From: Nitrospirota bacterium
GTDB lineage: Bacteria > Nitrospirota > Leptospirillia > Leptospirillales > Leptospirillaceae
Reading direction: 5' to 3'
DNA length: 49,883 nt
NCBI GenBank assembly: GCA_021810805.1
Contig: JAJZHW010000011.1
Coordinates: 1 to 49,883 of the forward strand
Shown here piece by piece: positions 46,177-49,883 of this stretch (position 1 is the first letter of the stretch; each line of letters begins with the position of its first letter). Both the position numbers and the translations under genes were made by a program. The notes under the pieces are model-generated. The model searched no databases. It was given only the letters and a program-made list of their open reading frames with translations, and had not been told where the DNA came from.

Positions 46177-46253
46177 GCCCCCGTAGCTCAGGTGGACAGA
46201 GCAGAGGTTTCCTAAACCTTTGGCCGGGTGTTCAAATCACCCCGGGGGCACCA
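46177..46253 (+). tRNA. tRNA-Arg, anticodon CCT
   Basis: A 77-nt cloverleaf folds completely: acceptor GCCCCCG/CGGGGGC, D-stem GCTC/GAGC, anticodon stem GAGGT/ACCTT with loop TTCCTAA (anticodon CCT, codon AGG), T-stem GGGTG/CACCC with loop TTCAAAT, and an encoded CCA end. Its 3' end is a typical integration site, and an integrase gene starts 114 bp downstream. No second copy of the tRNA 3' end is seen in the window, so the far border of any island would be outside it. Confidence 0.95.
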
Positions 46254-46367: not shown

Positions 46368-47405
46368 ATGGCACATTTCAGAAAACGCTCTGGAGCTTGG
46401 GAAGTCACGGTCCAGAAAAAGGGGATCGGAAGAATCTCGAGGACGTTCGACACGAAGGCCCAGGGGGAAGAATGGGCGAAAGCGACGGAATTCGAGATAG
46501 CTAGAGGCGTTTATGTCTCCAGAAAGGAAGCGGAGAATACGACGCTCGATGAAGCCTTGGATCGCTATGAACGGGAAGTGATTCCTGCAAAGAAAGGAGC
46601 CAAGCAGGAATCCATGCGGATACGGATCTGGAAACGGTCCACCTTGGCAAAACGCTCCCTCGCTTCTATCCAGGGAAAAGACATTGCTGCCTATCGGGAT
46701 TCACGGCTCAAGGAAATGTCCCCCAATTCCGTTCGGCATGAGTTGGCCGTCCTTTCCCACGTCTTCACGATTGCGGTCAAGGAATGGGGCATGACGGAAC
46801 TCGTCAATCCCGTTCGGCAAATACGGATGCCCAAAATGCCGGCGGGAAGGGACCGCCGCCTTATGCCTGGAGAATTCGACCGGATCCTTTCCGTGACTGA
46901 ATCTCCTGTTCTGGCCGATTTCGCCCGGTTTGCCATCGAAACGGCCATGAGACAAGAGGAGATAGCCAAGATGAGATGGGAGCATGTCGACCTCAAGAAA
47001 AGGGTCCTCATGATTCCCGAGGCGAAGGTTGAACCAAGAAAGGTTCCCCTCTCTCCGGAGGCAGTCCGGATCCTCTCCGACCTCCCCAGGAGGCTCGACG
47101 GGAAGGTTTGGGGGGGCACCCCTCACGCCATTTCCGTCGCCTGGCGGCGGGCTGTTGCCCGGGCCCGGGCGGCCTACGAGAAAGAGTTCGAAGAAATGGA
47201 TCAAGAAAAAAAGAATGCGAAGCCGGATCCGGGCTTTCTGGTGGATCTTACCTTCCACGACCTCCGGCATGAGGCGACCAGCCGGTTCTTCGAGAAGGGG
47301 TTGAACCCCATGCAAGTGGCGGCGATCACCGGGCATAAAACTCTACAAATGCTCAAGCGCTATACTCACCTCAAAGCGGAGGATCTTGCGGAGTTGTTGA
47401 GGTGA
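46368..47405 (+). CDS. Rci-like tyrosine recombinase (shufflon-type / integrase)
   Basis: This 345-aa tyrosine recombinase has an N-terminal arm-binding-like domain (~1-55), a core-binding SAM-like domain (~57-160, with AAYRDSRLKEMSPNSVRHE) and a catalytic domain. Catalytic residues: Arg195 (ETAMRQEE), Lys220, His297 and Arg300 (FHDLRHEA), His323 (ITGHK) and the nucleophile Tyr332 (LKRYTHL). From memory, the central and C-terminal blocks closely resemble R64 Rci, the shufflon recombinase. ATG 46368 is preceded by GGAGAAGG. It lies 114 bp after tRNA-Arg, so it may also be the integrase of an island inserted there. Confidence 0.85.
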   Translation: MAHFRKRSGAWEVTVQKKGIGRISRTFDTKAQGEEWAKATEFEIARGVYVSRKEAENTTLDEALDRYEREVIPAKKGAKQESMRIRIWKRSTLAKRSLASIQGKDIAAYRDSRLKEMSPNSVRHELAVLSHVFTIAVKEWGMTELVNPVRQIRMPKMPAGRDRRLMPGEFDRILSVTESPVLADFARFAIETAMRQEEIAKMRWEHVDLKKRVLMIPEAKVEPRKVPLSPEAVRILSDLPRRLDGKVWGGTPHAISVAWRRAVARARAAYEKEFEEMDQEKKNAKPDPGFLVDLTFHDLRHEATSRFFEKGLNPMQVAAITGHKTLQMLKRYTHLKAEDLAELLR

Positions 47406-47597: not shown

Positions 47598-47873
47598 ATG
47601 ACCAAGGCGGAATTGATCGAAAAGGTGGCGAAGTCGGCAAAGATCACGAAAGCGCAAGCGAATGAGGCCATTAACGGATTCGTCGAATCCATCAAGGGCG
47701 GGCTGAAGAAAGAGGGAACCCGGATCACGATGACGGGGTTCGGGACATTCTCGACAATCAAGCGTGCAGCCCGTACCGGCCGGAATCCCCGAACAGGCCA
47801 GACGATCAAAATATCAGCCAAAAGAACCCCGAAATTCACCCCCGGAAAAGCCTTCAAGGAAGCCATCAAGTAG
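47598..47873 (+). CDS. HU-family histone-like DNA-bending protein
   Basis: This 91-aa protein matches HU across its length: MTKAELIEKVAKSAKITKAQ, TMTGFGTFSTIKRAARTGRNP and KRTPKFTPGKAFKEAIK. The DNA-binding arm is GRNPRTGQ with the intercalating Pro. It bends DNA as a dimer. ATG 47598 has GAGGAGGG. Between two recombinase genes, it could be the accessory bender for site-specific recombination; a weak inverted repeat follows its stop. Confidence 0.9.
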   Translation: MTKAELIEKVAKSAKITKAQANEAINGFVESIKGGLKKEGTRITMTGFGTFSTIKRAARTGRNPRTGQTIKISAKRTPKFTPGKAFKEAIK

Positions 47874-47957: not shown

Positions 47958-49016
47958 TTAACCGCTTGAGGAGAGGGCTTCCTCCGAAAAATGGATCGTA
48001 AGATCCGTTTTTATCCGGCAAAGATCTTCGATCCTTTTTGAAATTTTCAGGATGGCTCCCCGGAGGATCTCGGGGGTCGAGATCACGTACCCCTCGGTCA
48101 CGTCCCCGCTTTTATGGTTCAGAATCTTCTTCAGAAGGTAAGGGGGAATTCCGATTTCCGCAGAGATGGTCGCGAACGTTCTCCGGAGGTCGTGAAGGGT
48201 GAAATCCACCTTCGACGCGGCGATCACCTTCAGCCTCGAGTCGTCGATGTCCCGGATCGGCGAGAGTCCGTTTTTTCCCGCGAAGACGCAGTTCTCCTTC
48301 TCCGCATCCTTTCGTCTTTCGTTCATGATCCCGAGGACGAAGGGGGGGAGCGGCAGGGTATGATCCCGGTGGTTTTTCGTCGCCCGGGCCGTCAGGGTGC
48401 GGGCGCGGAAGTCGATATCGGACCACTTGAGCGACATGATCTCCGTCTTTCTGAGCCCCAGGAAGAGCCCCGTCAGGAAGATGTCCCGGGCCGTACACTC
48501 CTGACGATTGTTCGAAAGGGACGCCACCGAGCGATACCAGATCGGGAGATCGTGCTTCTGGATGAACCGCGTCTTTCTGACGGGAGCGAGGGACAGTCCG
48601 GCCAGACGGACGATCTTCCCGGGGTTTCTCTCGGGAATTCCGAAGCGCCCTCCGGCATAGGCGTAAAGAGCCTTGAACACCCGGATGCAGAGGGCCGCCT
48701 GCGCCTCCCCCGACTTTGTCCGGATCTCCACGAATTTCTTGAGAATTTCCTCGTCCGGGAGACCCCCGAGATCCCTGTCGAGAAAGTCGGCGAGGTAGAC
48801 CTTCACGACCCGGTCGTATCCCTTAACCGTCGACGGGCGGAGCACCCGGAATGCCAGATAGTCCTCGTAGACCTTTTGGAGAGAGACCTTGGGGATCGCC
48901 TTCTCCCGAAATCGGCAAAAGTCCTGACACTCGATCCGGAGGGTGAGATCGTGTTCCCGTGGCGGAATGACGATCACCGCGGAGGCGGCCCGACAGATAA
49001 TTTCAGATTTTTCCAT
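47958..49016 (-). CDS. Second tyrosine recombinase, divergent family
   Basis: This 352-aa phage-integrase-type protein shares little with the Rci-like enzyme. Catalytic residues: Arg189 (GLRKTEI), Lys214 (TKNHRDH), His275 and Arg278 (HDLRRTF), His301 (LNHKSGD) and Tyr310 (EGYVIS). The first ~45 residues look helical and unusual. ATG 49016 follows AAGGAGGGGG at 5 nt, and a plausible promoter lies at 49068-49096. It is transcribed away from the cassette array that begins 150 bp upstream of its start. Confidence 0.85.
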   Translation of the reverse strand: MEKSEIICRAASAVIVIPPREHDLTLRIECQDFCRFREKAIPKVSLQKVYEDYLAFRVLRPSTVKGYDRVVKVYLADFLDRDLGGLPDEEILKKFVEIRTKSGEAQAALCIRVFKALYAYAGGRFGIPERNPGKIVRLAGLSLAPVRKTRFIQKHDLPIWYRSVASLSNNRQECTARDIFLTGLFLGLRKTEIMSLKWSDIDFRARTLTARATKNHRDHTLPLPPFVLGIMNERRKDAEKENCVFAGKNGLSPIRDIDDSRLKVIAASKVDFTLHDLRRTFATISAEIGIPPYLLKKILNHKSGDVTEGYVISTPEILRGAILKISKRIEDLCRIKTDLTIHFSEEALSSSG

Positions 49017-49067
49017 CCGCCCCCTCCTTTTTTTTCCCCGACCGGACCTCCCTTCTTTTTGACGTTA

Positions 49068-49096
49068 AAAATACCCGACAGGGCGGCGAATATCAA
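49068..49096 (-). promoter_or_regulatory. Promoter of the second recombinase gene
   Basis: On the minus strand, TTGATA (49091-49096), 17 nt, TATTTT (49068-49073), about 50 nt before the ATG. Confidence 0.5.
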
Positions 49097-49165
49097 GAAC
49101 CGATGATTTAAAAAAATCGCCAACGACGGTCAACATCTCTCGTCACCGGGAGAGGACCCGATTGC

Positions 49166-49177
49166 TGACAACCAATT
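49166..49177 (+). repeat. Direct repeat copy 1 of the cassette array
   Basis: TGACAACCAATT. It shares 11 of 12 bases with the other copies. Its TGA closes a short in-frame stretch (17 codons back to a TAA) ending in Cys, and its CAACCAATT opens cassette 1. Confidence 0.8.
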
Positions 49178-49426
49178 CTTAACGAAGGATATACCGGTCT
49201 GACATCCTACTCGTACCCAGGATGCTCCTCTTGCGGATCACAGCCTTACGCAGATTACGGGTGGCACAGGCTCTGCTTCATTTCGTATTTGTATGGAGAC
49301 GGTGGACTTGCAGACCTTGAATATTCCGGACCGGAAAACACCTATGGACAATATGATTGGCAATTTAAAAATCAGGAACAGTGGGGAGACTACTATGCGA
49401 CCGCCATGGTGACTTGTCTAGGGTGA
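49169..49426 (+). other. Start-less coding cassette 1 (85 codons)
   Basis: The frame is open from the repeat to a TGA at 49424-49426 and encodes 85 residues beginning Gln-Pro-Ile. The peptide is rich in Tyr, Gly, Trp and Cys (five Cys), like a secreted or surface domain, with SYSYPGCSSCGSQPYADYGW early and ATAMVTCLG at the end. There is no start codon at the left end and no ribosome site, so it is not a free gene. I interpret it as a promoter-less C-terminal module to be joined to an expressed gene by recombination at the repeat. Base composition is lower in GC than the neighbours. Confidence 0.6.
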
Positions 49427-49435
49427 CAACCAATC
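49424..49435 (+). repeat. Direct repeat copy 2 of the cassette array
   Basis: TGACAACCAATC. It supplies the stop of cassette 1 and the Gln-Pro-Ile start of cassette 2. It lies 258 bp after copy 1, a multiple of three. Confidence 0.85.
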
Positions 49436-49624
49436 ACTTTTGAAAATGGCTATTTGGCCTCCGGACCTCCGGCCGGAACGCTTTTAGCCTCGGCCGGAGG
49501 CACCGTATTTTATTATTCATTAGGTGTAAGTCTACCTTGGGCGACGTGGTCCGGCATGGGCGGTTATCGTACTTTATGCCTTGAATATGACTTTGGGTGG
49601 TACTCTTATATCTCATTGTGCTGA
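49427..49624 (+). other. Start-less coding cassette 2 (65 codons)
   Basis: An open frame of 65 codons in the same phase as cassette 1, again beginning Gln-Pro-Ile and ending in Cys before TGA (49622-49624). It is Gly/Ser/aromatic-rich, with GYLASGPPAGTLLASAGG then SLPWATWSGMGGYRTLCLEY. The left part contains an 8-bp inverted repeat (GCCTCCGG at 49457 / CCGGAGGC at 49494). No internal start with a ribosome site is visible. The sequence differs from cassettes 1 and 3 except at the boundary. Confidence 0.6.
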
Positions 49625-49633
49625 CAACCAATC
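49622..49633 (+). repeat. Direct repeat copy 3 of the cassette array
   Basis: TGACAACCAATC. It gives the stop of cassette 2 and the start of cassette 3. It lies 198 bp after copy 2, again a multiple of three, so the phase is kept. Confidence 0.85.
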
Positions 49634-49840
49634 AATCTCGGCGGAGGTGTCATTCAGTCGGCGAGTCAACCATGGGGAACGGTGGTAGGCACCTTGTGCA
49701 ACGGATGGCAAACGGTTGGAGCACAGGTGGGGAATGTTTATAAATTTGGGAGCTGTCAAAGCCCAGGTACTGTAACTGTAACAGGGATCAACTCATGTTC
49801 GGATAATGGTGGCAGCTATGGATTCGGCTACCCTTGCTGA
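49625..49840 (+). other. Start-less coding cassette 3 (71 codons)
   Basis: An open frame of 71 codons starting Gln-Pro-Ile-Asn and ending FGYPC before TGA at 49838-49840. It has four Cys and a GTLCNGWQTVG segment; C-x-G-x-W is reminiscent of PilV-type variable tails, from memory. The stop here is not inside the next repeat: 31 nt of apparently non-coding DNA follow before copy 4, so this may be the end of one array block. Confidence 0.6.
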
Positions 49841-49871
49841 CGCCCTCTTGAAACGCCTCGTCTTTTTACCA

Positions 49872-49883
49872 TGACAACCAATC
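49872..49883 (+). repeat. Direct repeat copy 4 at the window edge
   Basis: TGACAACCAATC at the last bases of the window, 250 bp after copy 3, in a different phase and preceded by A so that ATG ACA ACC could also be read. The array evidently continues beyond the window. Confidence 0.8.

Follow-up and report, generated by a model that had tools for sequence, protein, structure and literature searches.

A candidate shufflon for the PilV tip of an IncI-type conjugative pilus in Leptospirillaceae

A 49,883-bp contig from a Nitrospirota bacterium of the family Leptospirillaceae ends in an array of start-less coding cassettes bounded by a short direct repeat, beside a tyrosine recombinase gene. We consider this array most probably the reserve half of a shufflon by which the C-terminal tip of PilV is exchanged in an IncI-type (type IVB) conjugative pilus. 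An earlier note, made from the sequence alone, had proposed a shufflon-like system; for the array's own locus that reading is supported by homology to a complete locus in a second genus, where pilV, a cassette array and an orthologous recombinase stand together. On the strength of that second locus we class the system as a PilV shufflon in the broad sense, outside the Rci/sfx family. The window analysed here is the whole contig (C27 of assembly G000, which comprises 1.87 Mb in 32 contigs and is 88.67% complete), with the following features:

46177..46253, + strand: tRNA-Arg (CCT) found by ARAGORN, probable integration site; the integrase gene starts 115 nt further
46368..47405, + strand: tyrosine recombinase (PF00589), probable tRNA integrase
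47598..47873, + strand: HU-type DNA-binding protein gene (PF00216, 6.4e-32)
47958..49016, - strand: candidate shufflon tyrosine recombinase, 352 aa (PF00589), transcribed away from the array
49166..49177, + strand: putative recombination site 1, T variant at its last base
49169..49423, + strand: putative reserve cassette 1, 85-aa tail without a start codon, stopping at 49424-49426 in site 2
49424..49435, + strand: putative recombination site 2, from the repeat scan
49427..49621, + strand: putative reserve cassette 2, 65-aa tail without a start codon, stopping at 49622-49624 in site 3
49622..49633, + strand: putative recombination site 3, from the repeat scan
49625..49837, + strand: putative reserve cassette 3, 71-aa tail without a start codon, stopping at 49838-49840
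49872..49883, + strand: putative recombination site 4, ending with the contig's last base

The cassette array at the contig end

In the last 718 bases of the contig, three open frames without start codons are bounded by TGACAACCAAT(C/T), which occurs there four times, each time in + orientation. A window scan for TGACAACCAATY placed exact + strand copies at 49166, 49424, 49622 and 49872 (spacings of 258, 198 and 250), and allowing one mismatch added no further window match, against a mean of 0.22 and a largest count of 2 in 100 dinucleotide shuffles. The 1.87-Mb assembly as a whole contains no further exact copy, and a reversed control pattern gave none there. At least one exact copy was found in 17 of 61 genomes (the window's own, included in the 17, and 60 relatives); no other genome held more than three, and the three of genome G059 lie far apart. 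Frames entered as CAA-CCA-AT(C/T) from the first three repeats begin Gln-Pro-Ile and stay open for 85, 65 and 71 codons, with chances under dinucleotide shuffling of 0.016, 0.098 and 0.070 (product about 1.1e-4). Each ends in TGA, lying inside the next repeat for cassettes 1 and 2 and 31 nt before the fourth repeat for cassette 3. The encoded tails carry 4, 2 and 4 cysteines and have no mutual similarity by BLASTP at E<=1; cassettes 1 and 3, searched in the 61 genomes and in plasmids, found no match beyond themselves. The earlier note had described the array in these terms, with four same-strand copies, frames of these lengths and endings, tails sharing only their boundary and two tyrosine recombinase genes alongside, and its description held throughout, both genes matching PF00589.

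The contig and its fourth repeat end on the same base. Mixed arrangements are reported to make shufflons hard to assemble (PMC5430464), and a contig that stops at site 4 fits mixed arrangements beyond it, a suggestive but single coincidence and no proof of activity. The contig's last 21 bases matched none of the viral contigs searched. By eye, window positions 49869-49883 allow an alternative reading of the fourth repeat: because CC precedes it, the bases can be read ATG-ACA-ACC-AAT, with a possible start codon in another frame.

A complete homologous locus in a second genus

G015, a single-contig genome from the same family as the window, encodes a recombinase that likewise matches PF00589 and is 65% identical to the product of 47958-49016. 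Although 45 of the 61 genomes gave some tyrosine recombinase match at E<=0.001, the next best after G015 was 33% identical and of partial length. Across 395 genomes of the phylum, two gave a match at E<=1e-40, both beside arrays, and a Shufflon_N domain was likewise found in two, G008 and G015. Before the G015 recombinase lies pilV, encoding a 340-aa protein with a Pfam Shufflon_N match (1e-20; NCBIfam gave no match), and pilV is preceded by genes with PilM, PilS, T2SSF, T2SSE, PilO and secretin domains, the secretin gene having a PilN-type match below cut-off. Codons 275-278 of pilV read GGA-CAA-CCA-ATC and continue into a 65-aa tail. The interval from pilV to the orthologous recombinase contains CAACCAATC twice more, inverted, and from these copies start-less frames of 90 and 97 aa run in the same phase; one site is forward and two are inverted. 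Several start-less C-terminal frames, each entered from a repeated site in one codon phase, are thus found in both loci (3/3 in the window and 3/3 in G015). Two of the three G015 tails (L025 9316-9380 and 9796) are alike at their start, with 45% identity over 42 aa at E 0.05, perhaps reflecting a duplicated cassette.

The G015 locus bears on what the earlier note had foreseen outside the window. Its predicted expressed gene reading nGA-CAA-CCA-ATC has a counterpart in G015 pilV, and the inverted repeat copies that it proposed to look for are present in this homologous locus. It had also taken the direct orientation of all four window sites (no inverted site occurs in the window) as a hint of some other mechanism. 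No such mechanism is needed: the G015 reserve cassettes likewise share one orientation and, like those of the window, run away from the recombinase gene, while pilV and the recombinase gene run in the same direction and flank the array, as in R64. The window is therefore what the reserve half of such a locus is expected to look like, its sites being direct because only that side lies within it, with pilV expected rightward and in the opposite direction.

We weighed two other readings of the array. In the first, the array would acquire and shed tails through excision and integration at its direct sites, in the manner of an integron or by deletion and insertion. The four direct sites, with a divergent tyrosine recombinase beside the first of them, would suit this, but G015 has opposite sites and a pilV fused to one tail, integron-integrase models scored far below their cut-offs (TIGR02249, 16 bits vs 265), and of four inverted repeats listed in 48900-49883 none frames a cassette, all of which makes it very improbable. 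In the second, the repeats would be chance matches within one decayed gene, and the earlier note had named a continuous decayed gene in relatives among the findings that would speak against its own proposal. We found no support for it; the repeat and frame statistics speak against it, and it is contradicted by the G015 locus, an independent array in another genus with the same core and codon phase, so that we give it almost no credence.

Under the shufflon reading, a pilV gene with a constant 5' part would lie to the right of 49883, read leftwards and end in the same site (CAA-CCA-ATC, Gln-Pro-Ile). The recombinase of 47958-49016 would pair the pilV site with the opposite site before a reserve cassette and invert the intervening DNA, presumably acting on inverted sites alone. 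Because the site phase is identical in all cassettes, pilV would acquire a new tail in frame while its previous tail moved into the reserve. By enumeration for 2 to 6 cassettes, inversions between opposite sites suffice to bring every cassette to pilV. The tip would then determine which cells the pilus adheres to, an adhesive role that we assign by analogy with R64, TP114 and PAPI-1; for R64 and TP114 it is described in PMC9045228, which gives TP114 tails of 69-113 aa, and the tails here measure 65-97 aa.

A third genome shows the same pilus without the array. G008 (contig JAMCWM010000003.1, 'Nitrospirae bacterium isolate FK_Sedi_B_Bin.57'), a member of the window's own genus, shares the pil operon of G015 and was the one relative recovered when genome contigs were searched with PilV, a search that found nothing in viral contigs. 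Its pilV (L038 9262-10458) has a 275-residue constant part and a different tail, and lacks sites and recombinase: G008 and G015 PilV are 84% identical up to about residue 275, just before the site, and then differ, so that identity between the genera stops where the site starts. No copy of CAACCAATC was found in two stretches (28 kb) around G008 pilV, nor a close recombinase match in the G008 genome. G008 may descend from a shufflon that became locked, or may never have had one. An operon with pilV but neither site nor recombinase indicates that such a pilus can do without the switch. Cytosine methylase and EcoRII-type restriction genes (L086 5515-8717) lie about 10 kb ahead of the G008 pil operon, with a ParM-like gene nearer to it, suggesting a mobile element; in the 19 kb ahead of that operon, the eight ORFs scanned, of 15 listed with at least 120 aa, held no transfer domains.

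G008 also bears on whether the array might be a relic, that is, a former shufflon which kept its reserve cassettes but lost pilV and the transfer genes, and in which nothing is switched. Partial loss would be unsurprising in view of G008, and the window's own assembly gave no match to pilV, PilN or Shufflon_N. Against this, neither the recombinase nor any of the three frames is broken, and all four site copies are conserved; moreover, with an incomplete assembly and a contig ending inside the array, the absence of pilV is not established. We regard a relic as unlikely.

Two recombinases and a probable integrated element

The earlier note had listed two tyrosine recombinase genes beside the array. 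Of these, the adjacent one (47958-49016) probably encodes the shuffler, rather than the second, at 46368, whose product is the more Rci-like. The adjacent enzyme shares its catalytic residues, R189, K214, H275, R278, H301 and Y310, with R64 Rci, as invariant alignment columns, at an overall identity of 21%. Past the catalytic tyrosine it has 42 residues and its G015 orthologue 37, versus 113 in R64 and 114 in the KF707 enzyme, so the Rci-type C-terminal domain is absent from both as judged by length and alignment, not structure (AlphaFold2 on the single sequence of the adjacent recombinase gave a mean pLDDT of 35). A single clade of the window and G015 recombinases with R64 and KF707 Rci was rejected (AU p 1.7e-74, with a log-likelihood lower by 59) in a 21-row tree, a small set drawn from search hits with two long branches elsewhere. 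On these comparisons we take the adjacent recombinase to be no Rci orthologue and to fall outside the Rci/sfx family. Rci itself has been assigned to the IntP2 subgroup (PMC8138268), and its C-terminal part (residues 300-365 in R64; L063 6003-7157) matches the HicB-like family phrog_497 at 3.5e-5, a possible origin of the domain that the adjacent recombinase lacks. Beyond the two genera, matches to the recombinase were distant: 106 plasmid records, all below 60% identity and the best-ranked at 33%, and four viral contigs in a search with the recombinase pair. A pattern scan for the pair in 243 genome-contig stretches returned no relatives, a weak negative in that it also missed G015.

The recombination site sets the system apart from Rci/sfx as well. 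Seven sites from two genera have CAACCAAT and the codon phase in common. What is conserved across all seven is about GACAACCAATC, joined in the six sites uncut by the contig end by one G seven bases further, so the site arms are hardly conserved; a lone copy of CAACCAATC also occurs at L041 5029, away from the array. The sfx-type sequence GTGCCAATCCGGT has seven exact copies in the R64 stretch and none in the window at fewer than two mismatches; at up to three mismatches the window has 19 against 17.3 expected, none of them in the array. Nor does the window carry the site that marks the Rci/sfx family, GTGCCAATCCGGTNNNTGG. A shared origin with R64 sfx through the common CCAATC was considered and rejected on the codon phase, as these bases are read TGC-CAA-TCC in R64 but CAA-CCA-ATC in the window and G015. 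A screen of 19 recombinase loci for 13-mers occurring at least three times gave none, being too strict for even the 9-11-bp core of G015.

Could the array instead be a shufflon worked by the integrase of 46368-47405? By BLASTP that enzyme matches R64 Rci over 298 aa at 44% identity; it groups with the R64 and KF707 enzymes at 100/100 in the tree and lies 1.8 kb from the array. On the other side, tRNA genes occur in 9 of 11 scanned loci homologous to it, none of the 11 holds more than one copy of CAACCAATC, and its G015 homologues lie hundreds of kb from the G015 shufflon, where the array is accompanied by the orthologue of the adjacent recombinase. This assignment is hence decidedly unlikely, and 46368-47405 is probably the enzyme of integration at tRNA-Arg. 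In acidophile papers, including those on Leptospirillum, a 'shufflon-specific DNA recombinase' is named, and in PMC9053815 it is reported as induced along with an HU protein and a phage-related integrase; these names may refer to tRNA integrases like that of 46368-47405.

In the window, tRNA-Arg, the integrase and the HU gene together have the look of an integrated element's left end. Within the assembly (88.67% complete) the tRNA-Arg end was not found a second time, and neither the element's right end nor its pil genes were found. A 15-bp match to the tRNA end in contig C28 of the same assembly was rejected as the other end, as it sits amid coding-like sequence and the only tRNA in the 3-kb stretch is tRNA-His. 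Upstream of the G015 pil operon are a T4SS_TraI domain (5.9e-83), a DotH domain (3.3e-91) and a TrwB/TraD-type coupling protein, together with an ATPase and a TrbI-type protein. For these two, NCBIfam ranks DotB and DotG highest, followed among conjugation models by TraJ and TraO of IncI plasmids; all these NCBIfam matches to transfer genes fall below cut-offs. We read these genes as a chromosomal transfer module of IncI/Dot type. Among the G015 transfer genes (L040 and L026) are also a Rha-type regulator and a PLD-domain gene.

Relation to known shufflons and significance

The closest parallel in organization is R64 (IncI1), with a constant 5' part of pilV, interchangeable start-less tails, a pil operon of the same kind and, closing the array on the side away from pilV, a tyrosine recombinase gene oriented like pilV. 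The differences lie in the enzyme, here 21% identical and without the long C-terminal domain, in the site, which is not sfx, and in the distribution of sites over the strands (four on one and three on the other in R64, four direct in the window, one and two in G015). The shufflon of pKF707 from Pseudomonas furukawaii likewise places an inverted site pair and a tyrosine recombinase after pilV, but that enzyme resembles Rci (over 298 columns, 53% to R64 Rci), with the same long tail and R64-like sites, and its recombinase gene points towards pilV. pKF707 was the one plasmid, of seven non-enterobacterial plasmids with a PilV match examined, in which an integrase is annotated between pilV and the genes after it; no recombinase gene stood beside pilV in the annotated stretches of pRK1 and NZ_CP024481. 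PilV2 of PAPI-1 in Pseudomonas aeruginosa resembles the present case in belonging to a type IVb pilus of a chromosomally integrated element, and its C-terminus is reported to bind recipient LPS, although the accessible part of that source describes no switching array in PAPI-1 itself (PMC5297154). Among openly accessible papers, judged by title and start of abstract, we found no description of a system like the present one, and 'shufflon' occurs with Leptospirillum only as a gene name.

We lean slightly towards the view that PilV shufflons arose at least twice, here with an enzyme lineage unrelated to Rci and lacking its C-terminal domain, a different and very short site, and tandem reserve cassettes. 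All 14 Rci homologues in a published survey carry the C-terminal domain, which is cited there as helping to restrict Rci to inversions, and by a published idea the inversion-only behaviour of Rci depends on this domain and on the asymmetric site (PMC11852207). Since recombination between direct sites would lose cassettes, a second origin would mean that inversion-only behaviour must be enforced here in another way. A candidate system without that domain and with its reserve cassettes as direct repeats thus offers a natural test of this idea and, if active, an orthogonal shuffling enzyme. The locus also calls for caution in annotation: closer resemblance to Rci does not by itself make a protein near an array the shuffler, and the more Rci-like one here is probably a tRNA integrase. 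More broadly, these findings would carry the switching of PilV tips beyond the Pseudomonadota plasmids examined into another lineage and, if the system is active, integrated conjugative elements of this Leptospirillaceae lineage would vary their choice of partner.
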